Source: a virus. Taken from it: a DNA stretch of 24,175 bases. Positions 1,332 through 24,175 of this stretch are shown piece after piece. Below the pieces are notes generated by a model that had not been told where the DNA came from, made no database searches, and saw nothing but the letters and a program-made list of their open reading frames with translations. Position 1 is the first letter of the stretch; each line of letters starts with the position of its first letter. Position numbers and translations under genes: made by a program. The DNA is taken from positions 1 through 24,175 of the IMG/VR virus record IMGVR_UViG_3300000116_000217. The stretch is one strand, 5' to 3'.

Positions 1332-2128
1332 TGTACGAGCAGAACTTAGTTAAGGTTGTAGAACCTATAAAGCTTACAACTGTAAGTAGATTAAACCGAT
1401 CAAAAGCATGGAAGTACGGTTACAATAAAGAGCATGATCTTATTGTGATAAGTAAGACAGGACAGATCGGTGAAATCATTGAGATACAAAATTTGTGTAT
1501 AGCATTGCCGCCGGCACCAAAAAACCTTAAGAAAGGCGAAAACAAGTGGGTGGTTTCAGAGTATCCTAAGGAGCTAAAAAATATCAAGAGTATATTTGAT
1601 TGGCAAACATACCCGGACGCGTTTAAAAGCAACTGGGAAGCGTATATAGATGAAGAATTTAACAGACGTGAGAACGGATACTGGTTTTACAACAAAGATG
1701 TACCAACTTATATTACTGGTACTCATTACATGTACTTGCAATGGTCAAAGATTGATGTTGGACACCCTGACTATAGAGAGGCAAATAGACTCTTCTATAT
1801 ATATTTTGGGAAGCCTGCAAGGCTGATACTAGATGCTACGGAATGTGCTATCTTAAGAACAGACGGAGTGGATTCTCGTTTATGGCATCAGGTGAAACCG
1901 TCAATCTTGCAACAATATCAAGTGACGCCAGATTTGGTATCTTATCGAAGAGTGGTGCTGATGCCAAAAAGATGTTTACCGACAAGGTTGTACCCATCTC
2001 AGTTAACTATCCATTTTTCTTCAAACCTATCCAGGACGGTATGGATCGGCCAAAAACCGAACTTGCTTATAGAGTTCCAGCTTCTAAGCTCACTCGAAAA
2101 TCCATACAAGCGCAAGAAAAACAGATAG
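1331..2128 (+). CDS. terL: Large terminase, N-terminal reading frame (frame broken near 1800)
   Basis: The first about 159 residues are the N-terminal part of a phage large terminase: after a divergent lead-in comes the conserved stretch FDWQTYPDAF, then RENGYWFYNKDVPTYITGTH and MYLQWSKIDVGHPDYREAN. After about base 1807 this frame stops resembling the family, while the -1 frame takes up the expected sequence (FWEACKADTRCYGMCYL). The remaining about 106 residues to the stop at 2128 are therefore out-of-frame reading and probably meaningless. Translation begins in a TAATG overlap with the candidate small subunit. Joining 1331-1807 to 1807-3543 gives one continuous 737-residue protein, a sensible length for terminases of this type. 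Either an indel (real or a sequencing error) or recoding accounts for the break. The gene identity is secure; the 3' boundary of this frame is not biological if the frames are joined. Confidence 0.8.
   Translation: MYEQNLVKVVEPIKLTTVSRLNRSKAWKYGYNKEHDLIVISKTGQIGEIIEIQNLCIALPPAPKNLKKGENKWVVSEYPKELKNIKSIFDWQTYPDAFKSNWEAYIDEEFNRRENGYWFYNKDVPTYITGTHYMYLQWSKIDVGHPDYREANRLFYIYFGKPARLILDATECAILRTDGVDSRLWHQVKPSILQQYQVTPDLVSYRRVVLMPKRCLPTRLYPSQLTIHFSSNLSRTVWIGQKPNLLIEFQLLSSLENPYKRKKNR
1789..1830 (+). other. Interval containing the -1 frame break in the terminase gene
   Basis: The downstream frame has a TAG at 1786-1788, so the switch must lie 3' of it, and terminase-like sequence is already in the -1 frame by about 1807. 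The most economical point is the run TATATATATTTTGGG at 1796-1810: re-reading one T at 1807 yields IYFWEACKADTR. No canonical X XXY YYZ slippery heptamer occurs here: TAT TTT GGG would allow only a one-tRNA slip on TTT. The site combines a TA dinucleotide repeat with a T4 run, both prone to single-base indels in replication and sequencing. Confidence 0.75.
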
Positions 2129-3543
2129 AGCTTGAAGGACTTGATACAACAATTGACTGGAAAAACACTGGCGACAACTCTTACGATGGGGAAAAGCTTA
2201 AACTACTTGTCCATGACGAAAGTGGTAAATGGGAAAGACCAGATAACATCCTCAATAACTGGAGGGTTACCAAAACAACGTTAAGACTAGGAGCACGTAT
2301 TATAGGTAAGTGTTTGATGGGTAGTACATCGAATGCTTTAGATAAAGGTGGTGATAATTTTAAAAAATTATATAACGATTCAAACGTAACTAAAAGAAAC
2401 TCTAATGGACAGACCAAATCAGGACTATATTCATTATTTATCCCGATGGAGTGGAACTACGAGGGATTTATTGATGAGCACGGGTGGCCCGTATTTAATA
2501 ATCCTGATGGAAAGGTTTTGGATCCTTTTGGCGACGTTATTGAGCAAGGGGTTATAGATTACTGGGAAAACGAAGTTGAAGGTCTTAGACAAGACCAAGA
2601 TGCTTTAAACGAATACTACAGACAGTTTCCGCGTACGGAAGACCACGCGTTTAGAGATGAAACTAAAAACAGTATATTTAACCTAGCAAAAATCTACGAA
2701 CAGATTGATTATAACCAAGACCTACGTAATACTAATACTGTAACGCAAGGTAATTTTCAATGGGTTAACGGTGTACCGGATACAAATGTAGTGTTTATAC
2801 CTAGCCCGCAAGGTAGATTTAAGGTATCTTGGATACCGGGTGCGCATTTACAAAACAAGCACATAAGTAAAAACGGTGTTAAATATCCAGCTAACGAGCA
2901 CATTGGTGCATTTGGTTGTGATAGTTACGATATTTCAGGGACGACTGACGGCAGGGGCTCTAAAGGTGCATTACACGGCTTGACTAAGTTTACAATGGAA
3001 GATGCACCACCTAGTACATTCTTTTTAGAATATATAGCTAGGCCTCAGACAGCAGAGATATTTTTCGAAGACGTGCTTATGGCATGTGTATTTTACGGAA
3101 TGCCTATACTTGCTGAGAATAACAAACCTAGATTACTCTACCACTTTAAGCGTAGAGGCTATAGAGGTTATTCGATGAACCGACCTGACAGATTATGGAA
3201 TAAGCTTTCCGTAACTGAAAAAGAAATTGGAGGTATTCCAAACTCAAGCATGGATATGAAGCAATCACACGCTGCAGCAATAGAGATGTACATTAACGAA
3301 CATGTTGGTCAAATAGCTGAGGGTGAATACGGTACAATGTATTTTAACGAAACATTAAACGATTGGTCTAAATTTGACATAAATAATAGAACAAAATATG
3401 ATGCTGCTATTAGTTCTGGTCTTGCTATTATGGCTTGCCACAAAGATTTATACAGACCCGTCGGAAAACAACAAAAAACAAAATTAAACCTAAAGATTGC
3501 TCGATATAATCAAGAAGGTTATAATTCAACAATAATAAAATAA
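1843..3543 (+). CDS. terL: Large terminase, ATPase and nuclease reading frame
   Basis: This frame carries the catalytic body of the packaging motor. Numbering from the ATG at 1843: NRRSGFS (6-12) is a deviant Walker A; LLVHDE with D125/E126 is the Walker B and catalytic acid; IIGKCLMGSTSN around 150-165 fits the coupling motif; FGCDSYDISG (acid D360), PILAENNKP (E425) and NSSMDMKQ fit the acidic residues of the RNase H-like nuclease that cuts concatemeric DNA. Coding clearly extends upstream of this ATG (in-frame FWEACKADTRCYG at 1804-1842, overlapping the N-terminal frame), and no ribosome-binding signal precedes it, so the ATG is probably internal. In the joined 737-residue protein add 171 to these residue numbers. 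The gene ends 4 bases before the portal start. Whether active full-length protein is made depends on the frame break. Confidence 0.88.
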   Translation: MCYLKNRRSGFSFMASGETVNLATISSDARFGILSKSGADAKKMFTDKVVPISVNYPFFFKPIQDGMDRPKTELAYRVPASKLTRKSIQAQEKQIELEGLDTTIDWKNTGDNSYDGEKLKLLVHDESGKWERPDNILNNWRVTKTTLRLGARIIGKCLMGSTSNALDKGGDNFKKLYNDSNVTKRNSNGQTKSGLYSLFIPMEWNYEGFIDEHGWPVFNNPDGKVLDPFGDVIEQGVIDYWENEVEGLRQDQDALNEYYRQFPRTEDHAFRDETKNSIFNLAKIYEQIDYNQDLRNTNTVTQGNFQWVNGVPDTNVVFIPSPQGRFKVSWIPGAHLQNKHISKNGVKYPANEHIGAFGCDSYDISGTTDGRGSKGALHGLTKFTMEDAPPSTFFLEYIARPQTAEIFFEDVLMACVFYGMPILAENNKPRLLYHFKRRGYRGYSMNRPDRLWNKLSVTEKEIGGIPNSSMDMKQSHAAAIEMYINEHVGQIAEGEYGTMYFNETLNDWSKFDINNRTKYDAAISSGLAIMACHKDLYRPVGKQQKTKLNLKIARYNQEGYNSTIIK

Positions 3544-11220: not shown

Positions 11221-14200
11221 ATGGCTAAAATACAAAGAACGTTTACAGGCGGTAAAATGAATAAAGACCTAGATGAAAGATTACTTTCTCCAGGTCAATA
11301 TAGAGACGCTTTAAACATACAAGTTTCTACTTCTACAGGTTCTGATGTTGGCGCAATAGAAAATATACCTGGCAACACGATAAAAAACGCAAGACCTGAC
11401 GGAGATAGCATATGGCAAAGTAATTTTGGCATTGGTGTAGCTACTAATGTTGTAGGCAGCGTAGTAGACGGTCAGAATGATAAAATATATTATTTAGTAG
11501 CAACTCAAAATGCTAGCGTAAGCTTAATTGCTGAATACGATCAAAATACGGATGTATTAGATTTAGTATTAACGGATACACAATCTATTCTTAACTGGAA
11601 CTGGAAAAATCCTATAACAGGTATAAATATTTTAGAAGGCGTTTTGTTATTTACTGATAATAATAGAGAGCCTAAAAAAATAAATATAGACAGGTTTAAG
11701 GAAGGTACTACAAATGCTCAAACTCACACGCAAGTATATAATAGAGACTTTGTAGAGGCAGATATTACTGTAATTAAGAAAAGACCTCAAAATGCCCCTT
11801 CTTTAGAAACAAAGGCTACTAAAAAAACAGGTACTGGGATTGGTTGTGGTTTAAATCCCGTAGAGGTAACACATAATTTTTCATTATCTGGTGTAGTGAC
11901 TGGTGACAACGTGCCTGTGCCTAATGGGACAGAAGTGGATTTAAACTTCACCGGCTTGAACGATTGGGCTGTAGACGATATAGTCATATTAAACGCATCA
12001 AAGCCTAGAGAAAAAAATTTAATAGACGAATATAGAGTTAGAGCAAAAGTAAAGACACCTTTGCCAACTGGCTCGCCTTATACATATAAGCTAGAAGTGT
12101 TATCGGCATCGTCTGATATGGCGAGTGAAAATTTAGTTTGGTCTTGTTTATTAGAAGAAGACCCGCCGATGTTTGAAAATAAGTTTCCTCGATTTGCATA
12201 TAGATGGAAATACATTGACGGAGAGTATTCCGGGTTTTCACCCTTCTCAGAGCCTGCGTTTATAGGTGGTGACTTTGAATATAAAAGCTCTAAGGCTCAT
12301 AATGTTGGTATGAAAAATAACTTACGTTATTTAAGAATTCATACTTTTGAAACCCCACCAGACGATGTTGTAGAAATAGATATATTATATAAAGAAACTA
12401 ACTCAACCGGTATATATAAGGTGGATTCAGTTGGAGATACCGCGACTGAATATGAAATTACTTCTGAAATAGTAGGCCCTATTATTGAGCCCAACCAGTT
12501 TCTTAGAACTTTTGATAATGTTCCTCGTAAAGCGAAATCGCAAGAGGTTGTATCAAATAGAATAGTTTATGGTAATTATACACAAGGATATGATATAACC
12601 AATAAACCTAACATAACAGCGTCTGTAACTTCTACTAATCACCCGCAACTAAAAAGAGCAAATTCTTCGGTTAAATCACTTAGAAACTACCAAGTGGGTG
12701 TTGTTTTTGGTGATGCTTACGGAAGAGAAACACCTGTTTTTACAAGTGAGAATGCAAGTGTTACTGTTGATAAACAATCTGCTGTTAAAGTAAATTCAAT
12801 AAGCGCACAAGCAAGCGGAACCGCCCCAACCTGGGCTGCGTATTTTAAATACTATATAAAAGATATTAGCGGTGAATACTATAATCTAGCTTTAGATAGG
12901 TTTTTCCCTGCAGACGACGGCAATGTTTGGCTTTCTTTTCCAAGTGCCGAAAGAAACAAATTACAGGAAGGCGACTTTTTAGCACTAAAAAAGGTGCATG
13001 ATGATGAAGCTTCTGTTGATGAAGACATTAGATATAAAGCTTTAAGCATTTCTAATGAAACGCCGGAAGATGTTTTGTACAAAAAAACAGTTATAGCCGA
13101 GCATCAAGTAAGTTTATGTAATGTTGGGGAGGGCGATACTGTTATAACTTTTAACGGGCCAAGATCTGATTTTAATACAAAATTTGCACAAGCATTTAAT
13201 CAAGGTGGTTTTATTAGATTACAAACAGCTAATGGGCAAACTGATTTATATGAAATAAAAGAAGGTGGCCCTACTCAAAGTGTACCTCAAAATGGTTTAG
13301 ATAGTGTAAATTATAGGGTTGTTTTAGAAGAAGCCTTAGGATCAGAAATAGCGGGTAGTAATATAGGTGTAAGTAAAATAGCCGTTATAGATTATGTTGC
13401 AAGGCCGCGCAGAATGTATAACGGTAAGTTTTTTGTTAAAATAAATATAGATGCTAATTTTAAAGACTTTTTAATAGACCCACAGCATCAATTAAACCCT
13501 GTTTACGAAAATGTTGCACTTGCGGCTAGTAACAATCCTATTATTACGCCAGTTAACTCTGTAAGAACAGTTAGTGATACTGCTCCAGAAATAATATCTC
13601 AAGTAGCTTGGCAAGATCACCAAAACGGTGGCTATACAATAGCTGATTACCCTGAGCAAGGCAGTAATCAATTTACACTTTTATATCTGCCTCACGACGA
13701 AGCTCTCACGGAAAGTGGCACTATAGATAACACGGATCTCGATATTACATCGCCAGATGGTGGCACCGGGTGGTTTGTAAATAATATGAAGGTTGGGAAA
13801 TTTATTAAATTTGAACAAGACCCCGACCAAAATTATTACAAAATAACCAATATATCTACTTTAGTAAGAGCCAGAGCGGATGCCACTCCTACTAATAATA
13901 CTTATACAGGGAGAGACATAGAGCTTGTTAGAACTTTTACATTAGATAAAAATATACAAAACCACCCTGTCGACGATTGGAGCGGCTCTCCTGCATCCGC
14001 GACTGATGTAAGTAAATACGATTTTGAAATATTTAAGCAAACTACAGATTGGGATACATTCTTAGACCAGTTTAATGTAGAGTTTTCTTCATCTTCACCA
14101 GCTATATTTGAAACTATACCGCAAGAAACTTTAGATTTAGATATATATTATGAAGCTACTGATGCTTTACCTATAAATACTTATACTAACTCGATAAGCA

Positions 14201-15630
14201 TCGATTGGTTTAACTGCTACAGCTTTGGGAATGGTGTAGAATCTAATCGTATAAGAGATGATTTTAACGCGCCTACTATAGACAAAGGCTCTAAGGCTTC
14301 GGCGCCATTAGATGAGCCCTATGCAGAAGAGGTGCGTAAAACAGGGCTTATATACTCTGGTATTTTTAATTCTCTTTCAGGTGTAAATAATCTTAACCAG
14401 TTTAACATGGCTGAAAAGATTACCAAAGACATAGAACCTATATACGGTGGTATACAGAAACTGCATGCTAGAGATACTTCGTTAGTTGCTTTTTGCGAGG
14501 ATAAAGTATATAGAATACTAATAGACAAAGACGCTATATATAATGCAGATGGCAATCCTAATTTAATTGCTAGCAATAGGGTATTAGGTGATGCTTCTGC
14601 TTTTGCAGGCGAGTACGGTATATCTACCAATCCTGAGTCGTTTGCTTCTTATGGGTTTAGAATTTACTTTACTGATAAGAAAAGAAGCTCAGTGCTTAGG
14701 TTATCCATGGACGGTATAACCAGTATATCGGATAAAGATATGTCTCAATATATTGAAGATGCGTTTAAAGCAGAAACAAATTCTTATATATGGGGTAGTT
14801 ATGATCAAACAACAGGGTGTTATAACTTATCTATTAATAACGAAACGTTATCTTTTCAAGAAAAGGTTAATGGGTGGCCTACTAGACTATCTTATATGGC
14901 AGTCGCGGGACAATCTTTAAATAATGAATATTATACATTTAACCAGGCTAATTTATACGAGCATTCTGCAGAAAGCAATAGAAACACTTTTTATGGCCTA
15001 GGATACAATGCTTCTGTAAAGGTTATATTTAATGACCAGCCTTCTAGTATAAAAAATTTTAAAGCACTATCTTACGAAGGTGATACTGGGTGGATTGCCG
15101 AGGTTGTTACACAAGAGCAAGACGGAAGCGTAAGCACTTGGGTTAAAAAAGAAGGTATATATTATAACTTTATATCTGGTAAAGCTGGTACATGGGATAA
15201 TGACGCACAATCCGGTACTTTAAAAGCTGAAGCTTTTAATATTCAGGGACTTGGTTATCCTACTAGTGTTGTAAACAATAATAATAATCCTTCTGGAAAT
15301 GTTGATGACGTATATACTATAGTATTACCGCATATTAATGATTCAGCTCAGGTAAAAGATATGTTATTTACCAAAAGACCTAATAACGACATTCATTCGG
15401 TAGGTACTATTGAAAGTATAAATAGAGTTACTAATACAATGACTGTTAAAAACACAACAGGCAAAGGCTTAGGAGCAACATCTATTAGTAACTTTTTATT
15501 TATAGTTAAAGATGAATACAAAAATACTTCAGGTGTTATAGGCTATTACGCCGATGTAGAAATGTCAACAAACAGCACAGCTAAGAAAGAACTGTTTGCT
15601 ATCAACTCGGAAGTTTTTATAAGCAGCTAA
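11221..15630 (+). CDS. Tail stabilisation protein (P22 gp10-like; tail 'muzzle' type)
   Basis: At 1469 residues this is the largest complete gene in the window. Its N-terminus, RTFTGGKMNKDLDERLLSPG followed by QYRDALNIQVSTSTGSDVGA, is the recognisable start of the 'stabilisation protein' family of short-tailed phages (compare P22 gp10), in which this domain packs against the connector. Long members in crAss-like phages form the tail barrel or muzzle. The rest is beta-rich, with WLSFP/W-containing repeats, FRIYFTDKKRSSVLRLSMDG (a beta-propeller-like blade near residue 1150) and YNLSINNETLSFQEKVNGW, a pattern typical of the C-terminal propeller of this family. A region near residues 640-830 (DEDIRYKALSISNETPEDVL onward) may be an inserted domain. 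It begins 3 bases after the preceding stop. No signal peptide or enzymatic motif was seen. Confidence 0.85.
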   Translation: MAKIQRTFTGGKMNKDLDERLLSPGQYRDALNIQVSTSTGSDVGAIENIPGNTIKNARPDGDSIWQSNFGIGVATNVVGSVVDGQNDKIYYLVATQNASVSLIAEYDQNTDVLDLVLTDTQSILNWNWKNPITGINILEGVLLFTDNNREPKKINIDRFKEGTTNAQTHTQVYNRDFVEADITVIKKRPQNAPSLETKATKKTGTGIGCGLNPVEVTHNFSLSGVVTGDNVPVPNGTEVDLNFTGLNDWAVDDIVILNASKPREKNLIDEYRVRAKVKTPLPTGSPYTYKLEVLSASSDMASENLVWSCLLEEDPPMFENKFPRFAYRWKYIDGEYSGFSPFSEPAFIGGDFEYKSSKAHNVGMKNNLRYLRIHTFETPPDDVVEIDILYKETNSTGIYKVDSVGDTATEYEITSEIVGPIIEPNQFLRTFDNVPRKAKSQEVVSNRIVYGNYTQGYDITNKPNITASVTSTNHPQLKRANSSVKSLRNYQVGVVFGDAYGRETPVFTSENASVTVDKQSAVKVNSISAQASGTAPTWAAYFKYYIKDISGEYYNLALDRFFPADDGNVWLSFPSAERNKLQEGDFLALKKVHDDEASVDEDIRYKALSISNETPEDVLYKKTVIAEHQVSLCNVGEGDTVITFNGPRSDFNTKFAQAFNQGGFIRLQTANGQTDLYEIKEGGPTQSVPQNGLDSVNYRVVLEEALGSEIAGSNIGVSKIAVIDYVARPRRMYNGKFFVKINIDANFKDFLIDPQHQLNPVYENVALAASNNPIITPVNSVRTVSDTAPEIISQVAWQDHQNGGYTIADYPEQGSNQFTLLYLPHDEALTESGTIDNTDLDITSPDGGTGWFVNNMKVGKFIKFEQDPDQNYYKITNISTLVRARADATPTNNTYTGRDIELVRTFTLDKNIQNHPVDDWSGSPASATDVSKYDFEIFKQTTDWDTFLDQFNVEFSSSSPAIFETIPQETLDLDIYYEATDALPINTYTNSISIDWFNCYSFGNGVESNRIRDDFNAPTIDKGSKASAPLDEPYAEEVRKTGLIYSGIFNSLSGVNNLNQFNMAEKITKDIEPIYGGIQKLHARDTSLVAFCEDKVYRILIDKDAIYNADGNPNLIASNRVLGDASAFAGEYGISTNPESFASYGFRIYFTDKKRSSVLRLSMDGITSISDKDMSQYIEDAFKAETNSYIWGSYDQTTGCYNLSINNETLSFQEKVNGWPTRLSYMAVAGQSLNNEYYTFNQANLYEHSAESNRNTFYGLGYNASVKVIFNDQPSSIKNFKALSYEGDTGWIAEVVTQEQDGSVSTWVKKEGIYYNFISGKAGTWDNDAQSGTLKAEAFNIQGLGYPTSVVNNNNNPSGNVDDVYTIVLPHINDSAQVKDMLFTKRPNNDIHSVGTIESINRVTNTMTVKNTTGKGLGATSISNFLFIVKDEYKNTSGVIGYYADVEMSTNSTAKKELFAINSEVFISS

Positions 15631-15664
15631 TAATACGTAATAATAATTTATAAACTAATTTAAT

Positions 15665-16282
15665 ATGGCAATACCATTACCATTAGTAGGCCTTGGTGTA
15701 CAAGGCGCACTAGGTGTAGCTAGCGGAACTATCGGCTATAAACGCCGCAGACAAGAGCAAAGAGACGCACAAGCTATGTTTGATCAAAACATGGCGCAGT
15801 ATCGCAATCAAGACTTATCCAATCCATATAGGAACATGCAAAACCCATACGAAGATATGACGGTTAATCAACAAGCTGCTGATTTTCAAGCGCAGCAGCA
15901 ACAGCAAGGCATGGCTGCTACTATGGACGCACTCAAAGGGGCAGCTGGTTCTTCCGGCATAGGCGCTCTAACCCAATCACTATTAGCACAGCAATCTCAG
16001 AACGCTCAACGCGCATCTGCTGATATAGCTAGACAAGAACAAACCATTGCTTCACAACAAGCTCAGGGAGCTGGTCAATTGCAAGCATTAGAACGTAAAG
16101 GTGATTTGCTTTCAAGAAGTTTAAAAAGAGAGCAATATTCAACAGAATTAGGTATGTCTCAACAAAGATTAGCATCGGCTAACTTAGCAAGACAACAGGC
16201 TACTCAAGCTTTATTAGGCGGTGTTGGCGATTTAGTTGGTGCTGGTGTAGGTTTTTATAATGAAAGTATATATGGCGGATAA
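15665..16282 (+). CDS. Putative internal virion / ejection protein, small Gln-rich
   Basis: A 205-residue protein with a hydrophobic Gly-rich N-terminus (PLPLVGLGVQGALGVASGTI) followed by a basic stretch (GYKRRRQEQRD), a Pro/Asn segment (DLSNPYRNMQNPYEDMTVNQ), a Gln run (QAQQQQQG), an Ala/Gly-rich helix (GAAGSSGIGALTQSLLAQQ) and a long Gln/Ala helix. The C-terminus (GGVGDLVGAGVGFYNE) is again Gly-rich and hydrophobic. This architecture is typical of small internal or ejected proteins of short-tailed phages, comparable in style to T7 gp14, which help form the conduit across the cell envelope. The NPY-containing motif and 'GSSGIGAL.Q.L..Q' are features I recall from marine flavobacterial phages. 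The gene overlaps the next one, so the two are probably translated together. No enzymatic motif. Confidence 0.6.
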   Translation: MAIPLPLVGLGVQGALGVASGTIGYKRRRQEQRDAQAMFDQNMAQYRNQDLSNPYRNMQNPYEDMTVNQQAADFQAQQQQQGMAATMDALKGAAGSSGIGALTQSLLAQQSQNAQRASADIARQEQTIASQQAQGAGQLQALERKGDLLSRSLKREQYSTELGMSQQRLASANLARQQATQALLGGVGDLVGAGVGFYNESIYGG

Positions 16283-17411
16283 ATCATTAATACAAGGGGC
16301 TGGTCAGGTATATGGTTCCCAGGGTTTTGTTGATTACGGAAAAGCATATAAGCCTTCTAATCTGTTGGACGCTTATTCTAAAATACTGCAAGACCAAGAA
16401 AAAGAAAAGCAGGAGGTCGACGCAATAACCACTAAGGTTAACAATAGAATGAACTCAATGAATACAGTAGATTTAACTGATATTACATTTGAACAAAAAA
16501 CTATTGTAAAAGATTATTTAGTAGATCAAAGAAACATATACGCACAGGCGGCCAATGAAATAGCTTATATAGATGATAAGTCATCTTCAGAATACCAATA
16601 CTACGCTGATATTATGAGCGAGGTAAATAATAATATAAGTAATTTAAGTGAACAACTTAAAGACTATAAAGAGGCTAAAATCCAATACGAAGACGATAAT
16701 GACAAAAGGCTTTGGTCAGGCGGCGTGGGTAATGCAGTAGCACAAGCTGATGCCGCTTCTGTGTATGGCTTTGATGAAGATAATATAGCTACATTACAAA
16801 TAGCTAACGGTGGCAATATGCAATTTGTGTATTCCGGTAAAACAGTAAACTGGAACGACCATCAAGACCCTTATTTAAAACATTTCACCACTGCAGAATA
16901 TATAACAGGTCAAGCAAAAACTATTGCAGCCAGTAATTCAGAGCTTACTGCTGAAAATGCAAATTCAATTAGGTTACAATTAGACCAAAAGCTTTCAGAT
17001 GAGCAAGCTTTAAAATCATTAGTTGCTGGAGACTTTGTATACGAGGGTATTGATTTAAGTGATATTGTATACAACGAGGAAGATCCTAATTCTACAAAAA
17101 TAGAAGTTATAGACAGATTGGTAAATGGGTTTAAAGCTGTTGGTGCAAGAAGTAAAGCTACTTATGATAATGCTGAAGGGAATACTACTTATAGTGACAT
17201 GAGTAGCGCTCAAAGAGCTCTAGAGCAATCAAGACTTGGTGTTACACCTATTGAAATTAATCAAGTATATAATGTAGGAACAGCTACTAAACCTATAAAA
17301 ATATCAGTTACAAATAATGGCTGGACTGTAGAAGATGTAAAATCAGGCTTAATAGAAACTTATCCTAATTTAAAAGACGTACAAATTAGCAACCCAAATT
17401 TATTTAAATAA
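16272..17411 (+). CDS. Putative internal virion protein, helical (379 aa)
   Basis: From the ATG at 16272 this gives 379 residues starting MADKSLIQGAGQVYGSQGFV. An in-frame ATG at 16260 would add four residues (MKVY), but the MADxSLIQGA start is what I recall for relatives and reduces the overlap with the upstream gene to 11 bases. The N-terminal half is a long charged coiled coil (SKILQDQEKEKQEVDAIT, ANEIAYIDDKSSSEYQYYAD, NISNLSEQLKDYKEAK). The second half is mixed, with a strand-rich piece around GGNMQFVYSGKTVNWNDHQD and a C-terminal domain with ISVTNNGWTVEDVKSGLIET. No enzyme motif, signal peptide or membrane helix is visible. Its place between the Gln-rich protein and the giant protein suggests a third component of the ejected cargo; that is inference from order. 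Confidence 0.65.
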   Translation: MADKSLIQGAGQVYGSQGFVDYGKAYKPSNLLDAYSKILQDQEKEKQEVDAITTKVNNRMNSMNTVDLTDITFEQKTIVKDYLVDQRNIYAQAANEIAYIDDKSSSEYQYYADIMSEVNNNISNLSEQLKDYKEAKIQYEDDNDKRLWSGGVGNAVAQADAASVYGFDEDNIATLQIANGGNMQFVYSGKTVNWNDHQDPYLKHFTTAEYITGQAKTIAASNSELTAENANSIRLQLDQKLSDEQALKSLVAGDFVYEGIDLSDIVYNEEDPNSTKIEVIDRLVNGFKAVGARSKATYDNAEGNTTYSDMSSAQRALEQSRLGVTPIEINQVYNVGTATKPIKISVTNNGWTVEDVKSGLIETYPNLKDVQISNPNLFK

Positions 17412-17414
17412 TTC

Positions 17415-20400
17415 ATGTACATATTAGACGGTAAAAGTATTTCAGACGAACAGGCGAAAAAGTCTGCGGACCACTATGGGATTACAATAGAAGAGTGGTC
17501 CTCAAAATACGGGTGGCAATTTAGTGAGGGAAAGACAACGGTTCCGGAGGAAACGACTCCACCGACGGAACCAGTAAAAACAACGGCCGCTGGGGATTCC
17601 AGTTTGGCCGATACTTCTTTGGAGTCACCCGGAATTGATGAATTTGCAAAAAGAGTAGCAAATAATGTAAAAAGTGGTGATGATAGCGTCATACCAGTAT
17701 ATATTCCTCAAGAAAATAGAATAATAGGTGTTTCAGATCCGTATATGGGTCAAGTAGCTGTTCAAACAGATAATGGTGAAATTGCTTATTATGACGCGGG
17801 CGCTGCTCCAACGATTTCTACAAAAGATGATGTATATGGTACTCGTGATTTAGGGGTTACCCCAATTTCAACATCTCAAGATATTATTTTTGAAACTGAA
17901 AAAAGACCAATTCAAGAAAATCCTAAACTTGCCAATGTTCAAGACCATAACCCAGAATTAAAAACGGATTTTGTTAGCAAGCATTATGATATTATTGGGT
18001 TGCAAGCTGTAGATATTGAGGTTGCTGATTTTGAAGCTTGGCTAAAAAGAAAAGGGTTTTCTGAAGACTTTGAAAAAGATCTTGCTGATGGCGTTTATAC
18101 CTCTAAATGGTATGATGGCGCAATATTAGGGGAAGATTTTACAAAACAAGAGGTTCTTGATGCTCAAAAAGAAGCAACATTATATAGATTTCTGCAAGAT
18201 TATATAAATGATACTCAGGGCGAGCTAGATAAAAAAAATGCAATTAATGATTATTCTTTAAATAAAGATTATTATTCAGAAGCAGTAGGGTATAAAGGTA
18301 TGCTTGATTTATATTATGATAAAAGCATTAAAAAACAATCTTTAGAGCCTTTATATGACTATGATCAGCTGTCCATATATAATCAAAATTATTTTCCAGC
18401 TTTAAGCAAAAGAAATAAGAAAATACAGAAAAAACTACAATCTGAGGTTAAAAAAGAAAAAGAAAGAAGTGCTATAAGCTCATTTGATAATGCTGCTGGA
18501 CAAACAATAGAATCTACAATAGAAGGATTTTTTGACGCGGGTTTTGATTTTATATATTGGATGGAAGACGGTATTTTAGGAGCTCTTGGTGCTAACGATT
18601 CCTATGTAGACAGACAAAGATTATATTCTCAAGAAATTGACGCTTGGGATGTTAAAAACTTAAATTACATGTCCGCTAAGGGCAAAAAAGTCGCTTATAA
18701 AGGCAGCAATTATATAGTTTCCGAAGAAGGCACAATATATGATGTAGATGCAGGATATATTGTAAATAATGCTTTATCTGAAGGAGATTCTAAAAATATT
18801 TTACTAAATGCTAAAGCATCAGAAGAAGTAGTCTCTGATGTAAGTGTTAAAGGTGGCGCTGTTCAAATGGGTGCTGTTATGGGTAATATTGGATTTCAGG
18901 TATTAGCCACCAGGGGTTTAGGAAGATTTAGAGCAGCCGCTTCCAGTACATATTTAGCTAAGGCTAATGGTTTTAAAAATGTAGCGCAGTATAATAAATA
19001 CATGAACATGGTTAACCGTGGCGGCACAAATATGCGCGGTATTACAAATGCTTCTACTTTTGGATTACGCGTGCCTTTTAATCCCGCTGTAGCTGAGTCT
19101 ACTTTATTTCAAACTTTTTACGGTGCGGCTTCAGGATATGAGCAAACAATTTTAGCGGCTAAAAACGCTGGTTTAACAAATAAAGAAGCGGAAGATTTAG
19201 CATCGCAGGCTATGCTTGAAATGGGTGCTTTATATGGTCTTACAGGACCTATAAATCCAAGAATTGCAGCTATGAAAAACTTAGATGATTTTTTATCTAG
19301 GTCAGGTGTTGTAAATAAAGCTGTTCGTGATTATTTAAAAGCAGGAAAAAGTCCATTAGCATTTAAAGAGTCTCTTAAAGCTAGTTTAGTTAAAACAGCA
19401 ACAGTTTCTAAAAACTTTTTAAATGAAGGTTCTAAAGAAGTTGTACAAGAAAATATTCAGCAATACGGTGAATTTGAACTAGTAAATAAAAGATTAAACG
19501 AGGCAGCTGGAGTTGATTTTGTTAAAGATACTTATAGCCGCAAAGATTTTATAGAAACCTCTATACTTTCTTTTGTTTCTGCTGGTTTATTAGGTAGCGT
19601 TAATCTTAAAAATGTAGGGTTTAAAGGTACAAATAAACAAAGAATAACTAACCTTTATGCTTTTGCGAAGGATATGAAGGGTAGCACTTCTCGGTTAAAC
19701 GCTATGGTAGATGCTGGGCGTATTACCAGAGATCAAGCTGATGAAATTATTTTTGAAGCACAGGCGGTTGCTAGTTCAATTAATTCAATGCCTGCAAGAC
19801 TTCTTGAGCAAGATGCATATGATGCTGTAGAAATATTAAAGCTACAATCAAGCATAAAAGAAATGGAAGCGCAAAAAAAGCGCATGGACAAAGCTTACCA
19901 TTCTGTTATAGACCAATCAATTTCAACTGCGCAATCACAACTTGAAGAATTAATAATAGGGGCTAATAGAGAAATAGTTCTTAAAGACGCTGAAATAGCA
20001 GGTAGACTTGCGAGAAAAGCTGGTTCAAATGTTAAGACGCTTACAAACGAAGACTTTATTAAGGCTGGATATGATGCATCAGCACTAAATGCTGATGGTT
20101 TTATGGAGCAAGATGGAGAAATAATAATTAATATTGACAGAGCTGCGGAAACTGGAGCGTTTTTGTCTGTTGCTTCCCATGAATTATTACATAATATTCT
20201 TAGAAACGAGTTTAAAAATGTTCTTAGTGAAGAACAACAAAAAACCATTATAAACGAGTTTAGAAATATACTTAAAAAACGCGGGATACTAGCAGACATT
20301 GATAAAAGAGCTAAAATAATAAACCCGGAAACAGGAGAACAAGTTTATGATATTAAATTTGATAAAGAAGGTAATGTTGAAGGTGCTGATATAGATGAAT

Positions 20401-23400
20401 ATATTACATTTCTTTCAGACGCTATAGCTAAAGAAGAAGTATCTTTTGAGCAGCTAGGCGAAACCGTATGGGCAAGAATAGGTCGTTGGATTTCAAATGC
20501 TGTTAAAACTAGTTTTGGTAGAAAAGATATTAAATTTGAAAATGGGCGCCAAGTATTTGATTTTGTAAAAGATTATCAATCTTCTTATAAAAAAGGAAGA
20601 TTATCTTTTGCTGCTAAAGCTAAGGCTAAAGCATCAAAGGGAATAACAACGGATATAAAATTATCTGTTACTACTAAAAAGGAATTATTTGAAACCATTA
20701 GATCTGTAGTGCCCAAAAAAGCTAAAACCAAAGCTGAATTCCAATCAGATCCAGGGTTTACTGACATATACATGCTTTTACAGCCAGGGCAACCTGTACA
20801 TAATTTTATAGTAAGTAAGTTCCCTGGGCAAACAGAAAAAGTTAGAGGTCTAATAGAGTCTTTAGAAGAACGCCTTATAAATTTCGACCCTGAAAAGAAA
20901 AGAAAGGGAAGTAACGAGGCAATTGGAACTGAAGGATTTGTAGAATTCCTTATGGCTAATATTAATTTTGCCGCGCTTGACATCAATAAAAAATTAGCTA
21001 AAGAAGCTGCTAGAGAAAAGCAAACGGGAAGTCTTGACAGCGAAACAGCAAAACAAGTTGCTGATATTTCTAATGAAATTAAAAAAGAGCTGTCTAAAAG
21101 ACCTGAATATAGAGATTTACTTAGAAGAAGGGTAGTAGATGAAGATGTTGTAAAAGATATTGAACAAAAAGTAATTAAAATAGTTGCTCTTTTAAAATCT
21201 CGTATAGATGCTAAAGTAAGCAACAATGTTACCGTTACGCCTTTAATTAGAGAAATTAAAAAAGAAGCGGGTAAGTCAATAGATATTGATTTTAAAAAGG
21301 CTATGGGTGGTAAAAAAGATGGCGAGTTGCGTAAGTTTTTATTGCGTAATAAAGCGGCTATTTTAGAGAATATGTCAACTACCTGGTTGAGTCAAGCAAT
21401 TCCACAGGCTATTCAAAAAAGTGTTGATGGTGTTTTTACAACCGATTGGAAAGGTAAAAAAATAGATAGGGAAACAATGGAAACAGATTTAGCTGGGCGC
21501 ACATCTGGTGCGGATTTGGTTAGACGTTTACCAAAAGCTCCTGGTGCTATTTCTGATTCAGACTTTTTGTCGTTATTCTTAGAGCCTAACGGTAATCCCA
21601 CAAGAGGTAAAAAAGAATCTTTAGCTAAAGCTATGGCTGAAGAAATAACATTTGATATAATTAAAAAATCTTTTGACGAAAACGGTCCTATTGCACAAGC
21701 GCTTATAGAAAATCAAAAGCGCAACGGTGTTGAAAACGCTGAAAACATGGGACCTGAATTTAAAAGACAGGCTGAACGCGGTAATGTTAAATTTTCATTT
21801 ACAGCACCTATTTCAGAAGGTCGTCCACCTGCTGTAAATGTTTTAAATGAAGCAGATATTATGGCTACTCTTCGATTACTTGATTCCCCAAATGGTGATT
21901 CAAGAGTGTTAAAAGAACAATTAATACAAACTGCTTTAACAAAAATTCTTAAAGACAACGGTTATGGAGGTAAATTATTTGATTTAAGTAATCCAGAGCA
22001 ACTAGAAACGTATACGCGGACCATTAAGGATTTTGTGGTTCCTATTATGGAAAGAGATTTTTGGGGAACAAATGAGGCTACTCATTTACTGCATAGTAAG
22101 GAAATAATGTTTGGTGGGAAAATTAAGAAAAGACTTAAAGAGCTTGAAAAAGAGCTTGAAGACAATCCAGAACAACTAAAAAAAGAAAAAATAAAAATTA
22201 TAGCTGAATTTAAAGCTGAATTTCAAGCTGCAAGAAATAAGCTTATTGAAGATATATTTAATGATTCAAGCCAAAAATACGGTAAAAAAATAGCTAAGCC
22301 TAAAAAATTTAAAAATCCTAAAACAGACATAGTTATAGATACCACACCTACCAATGTTTTTCAAAATGAAGAAATTGCTAAAGCGGCTTATGAACAAGGA
22401 GCTGTTCTTAGTTATAATATATGGACAGAAAAAACAGGTAAACAATTATGGTTTGGATTAAAAGATGTACTTCAACAAAACAAAAATAATCCAGATGTAG
22501 TAATAGCTATAGCTACTTGGTTAAGCTCTTCTGCTAGTAATACAAAACACCCTATGAGAGCATTAGCTAGTATGATAGGGTATTCTAAAGGGTTTGATAA
22601 AAAAGTTGCACCTATAGAAATAGAGCACGCTTTACCAGCTACTACTATGATACAAACGCTCTTTAATACAGCTTTACAAAACCCGGAAGACTTTGCAACC
22701 AACTATTCATATATGAGTAAGAATTATGTTCTTATAGGAATGAATAAATCGGATGAAAATAAAACTAAAGCTTTTAAACAAACTAACATAACGGGGTACA
22801 ATTTAAGATCAGGTACATGGTGGGATAGGTATTTAAATCCTATAACTGCAAAAGCACAGGGATTTTTAGGAAAAAAAGATGATAAAACATTTATTGATGG
22901 CGATTTTGGAATAGACCCTAGATCAATTATATTATTTTCTGGAAATTCTTTATATGAAGTTGCTGGAGTTAGAAAAGATGGTTCTTTTTTAGCTTTTTTA
23001 GGAATAGGACTAAAGAAAATTAAGCTTAAAGAAAGTAATGAGTATTTAGATTTAACTGATGTTGCAAAAATAGCAGCTAAAGATAGAGTAGAACTAGATA
23101 GATTCCAAGACAATCAAAGAAAATATTCAGCTAGTTTTGCACCACCTGAAGCATTAAACGCTCAGTTTAACGCAATACTTAGAAGAAAGAGTGGTATTGA
23201 TGGTAGAACAGAAATATCTAGAACTAGAGCTCAAATTTTAGGTAAGGATAAAGGCAGGTTTAAGTTCTTTATTGCGCCAGGCGCCGATGACTTTAGAGGT
23301 TTAGTACATTATGCTTTTGCAGGACAAGGCAAGCAAGGTGAAAAAGATATGGAATTCTTTGAAAAGAATCTTATGGACCCGTACTTTAGAGGTATTGCTG

Positions 23401-24175
23401 CTATAGACGCTATGCGACAACTTATTAAAAGAGAATTTAAAGTTGTTACTACAGAGTTTAAAGATGAATACAAAATGCTTGAGGAGTCTGTACCTGGCAC
23501 ACCATTTACTTATGACCATGCGGTTCGTGTATATATGTGGGGTCTTGCAGGTACAGAAGTTCCTGGGTTAAGCGATAAAGATAGAAACGATTTAGAAAAT
23601 GCTATTTTAGATAATCCAGCGCTTGCGGATCTTGCTGAAGCATTACTCATTGTTGGTCGTCGCGAGGCGTGGCCTAAACCTTCAGAGTTTTGGCTTGGGG
23701 ATTCAGTATTGTCCGACCTTAACAGCATGACTGAAAAGGTTGGTCGTAAAGAAATACTTGCACAGTTTATTACAAATGTAGATGCAATATTTGATGAGGC
23801 TGCACTTAATAAGGTTGAAGCTATTAAAGGTAGAAAGCATCGTGAAGCCCTTGAAGATTCAATATACGCTATGAAAAACGGTAGTAACCGTCCTTCAGGT
23901 GCTAACATTCAAACTAATAAATGGATTAATTGGATTAACGGTTCCACGGGTGCAATCATGTTCTTCAACCGCCGCTCTGCATTATTACAGATGTTATCGT
24001 TTACTAACTTTATAAATTGGTCAGATAACAATCCTATAAAAGCTGCAGCAGCGTTTGCAAACCAAAAACAATACTGGAAAGACTTTGTATTTTTATTTAA
24101 CTCTGATAAATTAAAAGAACGTCGTGGTGGTTTGAAACAAGACGTTAGTGAATCTGAGATTGCTCAGATAGCAGG
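17415..24175 (+). CDS. Giant virion-associated polyvalent-type protein with zincin domain (3' partial)
   Basis: The frame opens with ATG at 17415, three bases after the previous stop, and stays open to the window edge: at least 2253 residues. Residues 1-40 form a short module (MYILDGKSISDEQAKKSADH, YGITIEEW), then a Pro/Thr-rich linker (about 45-75). Two Gly/Ala-rich hydrophobic helices follow (KGGAVQMGAVMGNIGF near 478; ILSFVSAGLLGSV near 715), then a coiled coil (about 800-860). Residues 900-930 hold a strand GEIIINIDRA and SVASHELLHNILR, a zincin metallopeptidase centre (H922, E923, H926) with E995 in DEYITFLSDA a possible third zinc ligand. Later come TDLAGRTSGADLVRRLPKAP and a conserved block from 2179 (GAIMFFNRRSALLQ, NFINWSDNNP). 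The protein is probably packaged and ejected, with protease activity and other domains acting in the host. Substrate unknown. Its end lies outside the window. Confidence 0.85.
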   Translation, partial: MYILDGKSISDEQAKKSADHYGITIEEWSSKYGWQFSEGKTTVPEETTPPTEPVKTTAAGDSSLADTSLESPGIDEFAKRVANNVKSGDDSVIPVYIPQENRIIGVSDPYMGQVAVQTDNGEIAYYDAGAAPTISTKDDVYGTRDLGVTPISTSQDIIFETEKRPIQENPKLANVQDHNPELKTDFVSKHYDIIGLQAVDIEVADFEAWLKRKGFSEDFEKDLADGVYTSKWYDGAILGEDFTKQEVLDAQKEATLYRFLQDYINDTQGELDKKNAINDYSLNKDYYSEAVGYKGMLDLYYDKSIKKQSLEPLYDYDQLSIYNQNYFPALSKRNKKIQKKLQSEVKKEKERSAISSFDNAAGQTIESTIEGFFDAGFDFIYWMEDGILGALGANDSYVDRQRLYSQEIDAWDVKNLNYMSAKGKKVAYKGSNYIVSEEGTIYDVDAGYIVNNALSEGDSKNILLNAKASEEVVSDVSVKGGAVQMGAVMGNIGFQVLATRGLGRFRAAASSTYLAKANGFKNVAQYNKYMNMVNRGGTNMRGITNASTFGLRVPFNPAVAESTLFQTFYGAASGYEQTILAAKNAGLTNKEAEDLASQAMLEMGALYGLTGPINPRIAAMKNLDDFLSRSGVVNKAVRDYLKAGKSPLAFKESLKASLVKTATVSKNFLNEGSKEVVQENIQQYGEFELVNKRLNEAAGVDFVKDTYSRKDFIETSILSFVSAGLLGSVNLKNVGFKGTNKQRITNLYAFAKDMKGSTSRLNAMVDAGRITRDQADEIIFEAQAVASSINSMPARLLEQDAYDAVEILKLQSSIKEMEAQKKRMDKAYHSVIDQSISTAQSQLEELIIGANREIVLKDAEIAGRLARKAGSNVKTLTNEDFIKAGYDASALNADGFMEQDGEIIINIDRAAETGAFLSVASHELLHNILRNEFKNVLSEEQQKTIINEFRNILKKRGILADIDKRAKIINPETGEQVYDIKFDKEGNVEGADIDEYITFLSDAIAKEEVSFEQLGETVWARIGRWISNAVKTSFGRKDIKFENGRQVFDFVKDYQSSYKKGRLSFAAKAKAKASKGITTDIKLSVTTKKELFETIRSVVPKKAKTKAEFQSDPGFTDIYMLLQPGQPVHNFIVSKFPGQTEKVRGLIESLEERLINFDPEKKRKGSNEAIGTEGFVEFLMANINFAALDINKKLAKEAAREKQTGSLDSETAKQVADISNEIKKELSKRPEYRDLLRRRVVDEDVVKDIEQKVIKIVALLKSRIDAKVSNNVTVTPLIREIKKEAGKSIDIDFKKAMGGKKDGELRKFLLRNKAAILENMSTTWLSQAIPQAIQKSVDGVFTTDWKGKKIDRETMETDLAGRTSGADLVRRLPKAPGAISDSDFLSLFLEPNGNPTRGKKESLAKAMAEEITFDIIKKSFDENGPIAQALIENQKRNGVENAENMGPEFKRQAERGNVKFSFTAPISEGRPPAVNVLNEADIMATLRLLDSPNGDSRVLKEQLIQTALTKILKDNGYGGKLFDLSNPEQLETYTRTIKDFVVPIMERDFWGTNEATHLLHSKEIMFGGKIKKRLKELEKELEDNPEQLKKEKIKIIAEFKAEFQAARNKLIEDIFNDSSQKYGKKIAKPKKFKNPKTDIVIDTTPTNVFQNEEIAKAAYEQGAVLSYNIWTEKTGKQLWFGLKDVLQQNKNNPDVVIAIATWLSSSASNTKHPMRALASMIGYSKGFDKKVAPIEIEHALPATTMIQTLFNTALQNPEDFATNYSYMSKNYVLIGMNKSDENKTKAFKQTNITGYNLRSGTWWDRYLNPITAKAQGFLGKKDDKTFIDGDFGIDPRSIILFSGNSLYEVAGVRKDGSFLAFLGIGLKKIKLKESNEYLDLTDVAKIAAKDRVELDRFQDNQRKYSASFAPPEALNAQFNAILRRKSGIDGRTEISRTRAQILGKDKGRFKFFIAPGADDFRGLVHYAFAGQGKQGEKDMEFFEKNLMDPYFRGIAAIDAMRQLIKREFKVVTTEFKDEYKMLEESVPGTPFTYDHAVRVYMWGLAGTEVPGLSDKDRNDLENAILDNPALADLAEALLIVGRREAWPKPSEFWLGDSVLSDLNSMTEKVGRKEILAQFITNVDAIFDEAALNKVEAIKGRKHREALEDSIYAMKNGSNRPSGANIQTNKWINWINGSTGAIMFFNRRSALLQMLSFTNFINWSDNNPIKAAAAFANQKQYWKDFVFLFNSDKLKERRGGLKQDVSESEIAQIA
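20178..20192 (+). other. Zincin active-site motif HELLH in the giant protein
   Basis: Codons 922-926 of the giant protein read His-Glu-Leu-Leu-His. The motif lies in a predicted helix (LSVASHELLHNILRNEF) preceded at 901-909 by a strand (GEIIINIDR), which is the local arrangement of zincin metallopeptidases. The helix composition (small residues before HE, hydrophobic after) argues against chance occurrence. The third zinc ligand cannot be fixed by eye; E995 is a candidate. Confidence 0.7.

Follow-up and report, generated by a model that had tools for sequence, protein, structure and literature searches.

The window, a 24,175-base fragment of an uncultured marine phage analysed at its full length, ends in a gene for a giant protein whose anatomy is new: two conserved blocks, B and C, flank a slot for exchangeable cassettes, and a short motif, [VI]K[FY]S, lies at the slot edges. 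On our reading, held at about even chances, the protein is polyvalent virion cargo with an obligatory zincin that cleaves it from within, at [VI]K[FY]S-type seams, so that a cassette enzyme is freed.

The giant protein (P0001) is encoded at 17415..24173 (+ strand) by a single open frame that has an ATG start and 2253 codons and is still open at the contig end, in agreement with the original observation of a stop-free frame of at least 2253 codons at 17415-24175. The 3' end is missing. Complete homologues are about 2.4-3.4 thousand residues long, and the homologue on L001 extends ~360 residues beyond its match to the window end, so the full gene is longer. The stop codon of the preceding gene lies at 17411, making the giant the next gene of the late operon. 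The late genes immediately upstream (11221..17411, +; 1469, 205 and 383 aa) are in the order found in cultured Pervagoviridae, Pachyviridae and Elemovirus, and genes for a GroES-like co-chaperonin, terminase, portal and several virion structural proteins precede the giant, which places it among virion genes. The co-chaperonin gene (518-1105) is immediately 5' of the terminase, as it is in several cultured relatives. The terminase large subunit is present as two overlapping frames (1331-2128 and 1843-3543) matching successive parts of one PHROG; a frameshift, a sequencing error or a real split might account for this.

Relatives of the portal were found in 87 cultured-phage records (Flavobacterium, Cellulophaga, Tenacibaculum, Maribacter and one unclassified podovirus), and in those genomes a giant gene closes the same gene order. 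Depositors of Cellulophaga, Flavobacterium and Tenacibaculum phages annotated this syntenic gene as a structural protein (phi38:1 gp101, Gundel gp74, elemoF gp18 and phi46:3 gp120). This synteny suggests that the giant of the window is also present in the virion. Because portal relatives and gene order are shared with cultured flavophages, the hosts are most likely Bacteroidota. Among eight contigs from metagenome-assembled genomes (MAGs) that carry block C, two are labelled Flavobacteriaceae, one Saprospiraceae and one Flavobacteriales; the remaining labels may be binning errors. Block C relatives were also seen on contigs of a Woesearchaeota MAG (L158, L159), probably misbinned phage contigs.

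Giants were gathered via blocks B and C and never via the zincin. A direct search with the window protein returned seven viral contigs, the profile of block B (residues 1100-1461) returned 58 contigs, and that of block C (residues 1910-2253) returned 138, of which 80 were retained. The block B and C contigs yielded 102 distinct giant ORFs. We considered whether the giant is naturally divided between separate genes in L110 and L051 and rejected this, as the overlapping frames resemble frameshifts. The record behind L110 (G010, 129,537 bases) contains two zincin regions ~62 kb apart and may hold two giants or two joined phages. P0001 had no significant match in Pfam, PHROG or NCBIfam, and tblastn of P0001, block B, block C and the HAD module against cultured phages gave no match.

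The first 792 residues of the protein (17415..19790, +) form a fast-evolving N-terminal region; the equivalent region of a homologue, P0006, matches giants of the cultured flavophages phi38:1, phi46:3 and elemoF. The zincin domain follows at approximately residues 855-1075 (19977..20639, +), with a long predicted helix hairpin before it. As originally described, GEIIINIDR stands directly ahead of HELLH (residues 922-926; 20178..20192, +) and DEYITFLSDA comes after it, with E995 (20397..20399, +) exactly 69 residues past H926. HELLH would supply two ligand histidines and the catalytic glutamate, and E995, on a downstream helix, is the predicted third zinc ligand. When 41 divergent zincin regions were aligned (23% mean column identity), the only invariant columns were H922, E923, H926 and E995. 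Two histidines, a glutamate and a downstream glutamate in this arrangement are the classic zincin ligand and base set.

Exactly one HExxH was present in 99 of the 102 distinct giant ORFs. The three ORFs that lack it are one 5'-truncated ORF and downstream pieces of frameshift-split genes, so that loss of HExxH in close homologues, which had been named as grounds for rejecting the zincin, was seen among these ORFs in fragments only. Since HExxH occurred in only 0.5% of shuffled giants, its presence in the real ORFs is not due to chance. Several divergent zincin subtypes occupy the same position, some of them beyond the reach of the zincin profile. Syntenic giants with no HExxH at all are found in phi38:1, phi46:3 and Panino (L012 21710-26785, L013 24433-28752 and L009 35423-40912), indicating that the zincin was gained or lost between families.

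In the AlphaFold2 (AF2) model of the zincin (pLDDT 79.5, pTM 0.73), the HExxH helix follows short strands and E995 sits on a later helix (200-212 of the model). The order of elements fits the zincin fold, with a small beta sheet, an N-terminal helix and two C-terminal helices. No significant match to the zincin was found in the PDB by sequence or by fold. Fold matches were dominated by the N-terminal helix hairpin; no weight was given to two longer but weak alignments with anthrax edema and lethal factor complexes (Z 5.5). The best match among viral models was an uncharacterised giant protein (E 2e-7), and Pfam zincin matches were weak and scattered. With no solved structure matching significantly, the assignment rests on residue pattern and invariance. 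A zincin-type active site, as originally claimed, is supported by sequence; the zincin fold is putative, and the domain would be predicted to bind metal and to act as a protease.

Domain order in the family is fixed: N-terminal region, zincin, block B, slot, block C. In the window protein, block B (residues 1100-1461; 20712..21797, +) ends in RGNVKFS, the cassette occupies residues 1462-1902 (21798..23120, +), and block C (residues 1910-2253; 23142..24173, +) extends past the window in homologues. The slot shows in a comparison of two homologues, P0002 and P0004, which are mostly >90% identical outside it, except for a less similar stretch in block B, and only 24-43% identical within its ~430 residues, which span VKFS to KYS. 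Across the family the slot holds HNH-like, HAD, ART-in-HAD, zeta-toxin-like kinase and unidentified modules. The cassette of the window protein was recognised by pattern only (HP..EHALP..NYVLIGMNK, HNH-like); the pattern HP..EHxxP..NY..N/K is conserved in eight homologues, judged by eye, and had no Pfam or fold match. Several unrelated domains per chain, namely the zincin with zeta-toxin/AAA_33 kinase, HAD or ART-like cassettes, are thus found at the level of the family, and the window protein itself has the zincin and the HNH-like pattern only. Zeta-toxin-like P-loop kinase cassettes were seen in the giants of L035, L038, L040, L050, L052 and L081, in each case with the seam motif or a degenerate form of it ahead; the zeta-toxin/AAA_33 Pfam match had E 1e-13 to 1e-15 in L040 and L050. 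Relatives of this kinase occur in DAC16 and PSS2. In the giants of L006 (residues 1869-2182) and L100 (residues 2185-2496), a HAD hydrolase module is interrupted, between DFDDT and its end, by an ART-like module.

The two junctions of the slot in the window protein are VKFS at residues 1458-1461 (21786..21797, +) and KYS at residues 1903-1905 (23121..23129, +). In most giants block B ends in RG[NT][VI]K[FY]S, and in many block C starts right after [VI]K[FY]S. The motif was observed 119 times in giants compared to 16 expected (~7-fold), and once in 186 other proteins of the same contigs compared to 2.9 expected, i.e. with no enrichment. Among 72 dereplicated giants, 72 of 95 copies lay at the two slot edges (49 at the B end and 23 at the C start), 16 were in cassette stretches and one in 59 thousand residues of N-terminus; none was found in the B core or in 50 thousand residues of block C and C-terminus. 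Scarcity outside the seams was significant relative to shuffles (P about 0.005). Counts of plain [KR][FY]S within single proteins were mostly not significant, and the family was needed for the signal to appear.

Common descent accounts for part of the motif's presence at the B end. The same residues are also carried by unrelated modules: K[FYW]S was found ~12 residues ahead of HAD in 13 of 32 distinct HAD starts, with degenerate forms at others, and at the C start it followed 8 of 10 unrelated groups of cassette ends, yet only about half of all sequences. Of 418 similarity breakpoints, 74 fell at most 15 residues from K[FYWL]S, where 19 were expected. Since 276 [KR][FY]S sites are encoded by 50 different 9-mers, the motif is kept as protein and not as DNA, and this variety of codons argues against a seam at the DNA level. 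In the AF2 model of residues 1100-2253, pLDDT was <50 at 1456-1494 and 1897-1907, stretches that cover both motifs and lie between better-predicted parts. Both motifs are therefore in predicted disordered linkers, which suggests that the seams are flexible.

In the proposed mechanism, the N-terminal region of the giant is followed by an obligatory Glu-zincin, then by block B, an exchangeable cassette and block C. The zincin would cleave the chain of which it is part at the [VI]K[FY]S-type seams flanking the cassette, and the cassette enzyme, HNH-like here, would be freed from structural or ejection parts either during assembly or after entry into the host. For the phage of the window this predicts three products: N-zincin-B, ending at about residue 1461; the cassette, about 1462-1905; and C. 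As the motif is not markedly enriched between the zincin and block B, the zincin should remain attached to the N-terminal product. Release in cis is the simplest reading, given that the zincin is obligatory, the cassettes are exchanged and seams resembling cut sites surround the payload, and it follows a processing role for the zincins of polyvalent proteins that was predicted in 2017 (PMC5512222). The zincin, which persists in all giants although its subtype may change, behaves like a maintenance function, and the cassettes, which are exchanged, behave like payload. Counting against cleavage in cis, the N4 virion RNA polymerase (RNAP) is packaged without being cut although it has a metallopeptidase (MPTase) domain (PMC5512222). 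Zincin and motif are linked by circumstantial evidence: the elemo and Gundel giants have a zincin and no [VI]K[FY]S, so the two are not always together.

The original prediction was of a cargo protease acting on the host. The giant polyvalent type, the late virion operon, the probable Bacteroidota phage and the zincin-type site all held up, but the zincin as a host-directed weapon was not supported. A zincin that acts after injection, early in infection, on a host protein of the envelope, of defence or of transcription would fit the late-gene position and polyvalent make-up, host targeting is among the options listed for such proteins (PMC5512222), and several divergent subtypes in one place might be expected if targets differ. 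It is the cassettes, however, that turn over in the manner of effectors, while a single HExxH is kept in essentially every giant; moreover, the seam motifs around the slot suggest a substrate in the same chain. These patterns favour processing in cis, and we regard a host-directed zincin as less likely, indeed improbable.

Two other explanations concern the seams themselves. They might be cut by another enzyme, such as a phage maturation protease or a host protease, with the zincin serving elsewhere, such as by helping to package or eject the giant. The MPTase-containing region is required for encapsidation of the N4 virion RNAP (PMC5512222), and zincins without the motif in elemo and Gundel point the same way, but no separate protease was recognised among the late genes of the window and the motif is no more frequent than expected in the remaining proteins of these contigs; we give this explanation little weight. 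Alternatively, the seams might not be cut at all, [VI]K[FY]S being a linker or docking motif or the inherited trace of recombination by which modules are swapped. Cassettes are clearly exchanged at these points, and recombination seams could explain this. Short DNA identity is not what is kept, however, as the codons of the motif vary freely, and non-homologous modules bear the same residues in giants where the motif is otherwise scarce, so that uncut seams also appear quite unlikely.

Zincins are reported to be the commonest domain of polyvalent proteins (PMC5512222), and we found no description in the accessible literature of a cutting site for the self-processing predicted there. The present family supplies candidate sites at fixed places in ~100 homologues together with an invariant active site, which makes the prediction of self-processing testable. 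If it is correct, the cassettes could also be recognised by their seams, yielding a catalogue of the enzymes that these phages deliver. More tentatively, and with somewhat less than even confidence, we propose a polyprotein system in which marine phages deliver interchangeable cassettes within a single giant virion protein, from which its own zincin cuts them out at a shared K[FY]S-type site; any new cassette that gained two seam sites could then be loaded and released.

Among known systems, the N4-type virion RNAP is likewise a giant virion protein with a zincin (its MPTase domain), but P0001 matched no RNAP family in Pfam or PHROGs, a comparison that divergent RNAPs may escape. The cargo proteins gp45-gp50 of phiCrAss001 (PMC10172136), likened here by description, are also large cargo proteins of a Bacteroidota podovirus for which an unfolding and ejection model is given; unlike our reading of the giant, the text of that paper does not mention protease, peptidase or cleavage. 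The polyvalent proteins of phages and conjugative elements (Iyer et al. 2017, PMC5512222) resemble the giant as large multidomain late-gene proteins with a zincin-like MPTase, and kinds of cassette listed there, such as ART, occur across the giant family. The giants differ in the fixed order N-zincin-B-slot-C, in the defined slot with its seam motif, which we did not find described in PMC5512222, and in that no family profile matched the window protein. Among the cultured flavophage giants, those of phi38:1, phi46:3 and Panino are without HExxH, none has [VI]K[FY]S repeats, and blocks B and C had no tblastn match in the phage collection. They nonetheless resemble the window protein in their place in the late operon (Elemovirus gp18, Gundel gp74, phi38:1 gp101 and phi46:3 gp120); 1460-1660 of elemo gp18 matches the zincin region (i-E 2e-7), and the C-terminal region of the Gundel protein matches the C-terminal part (4e-9).
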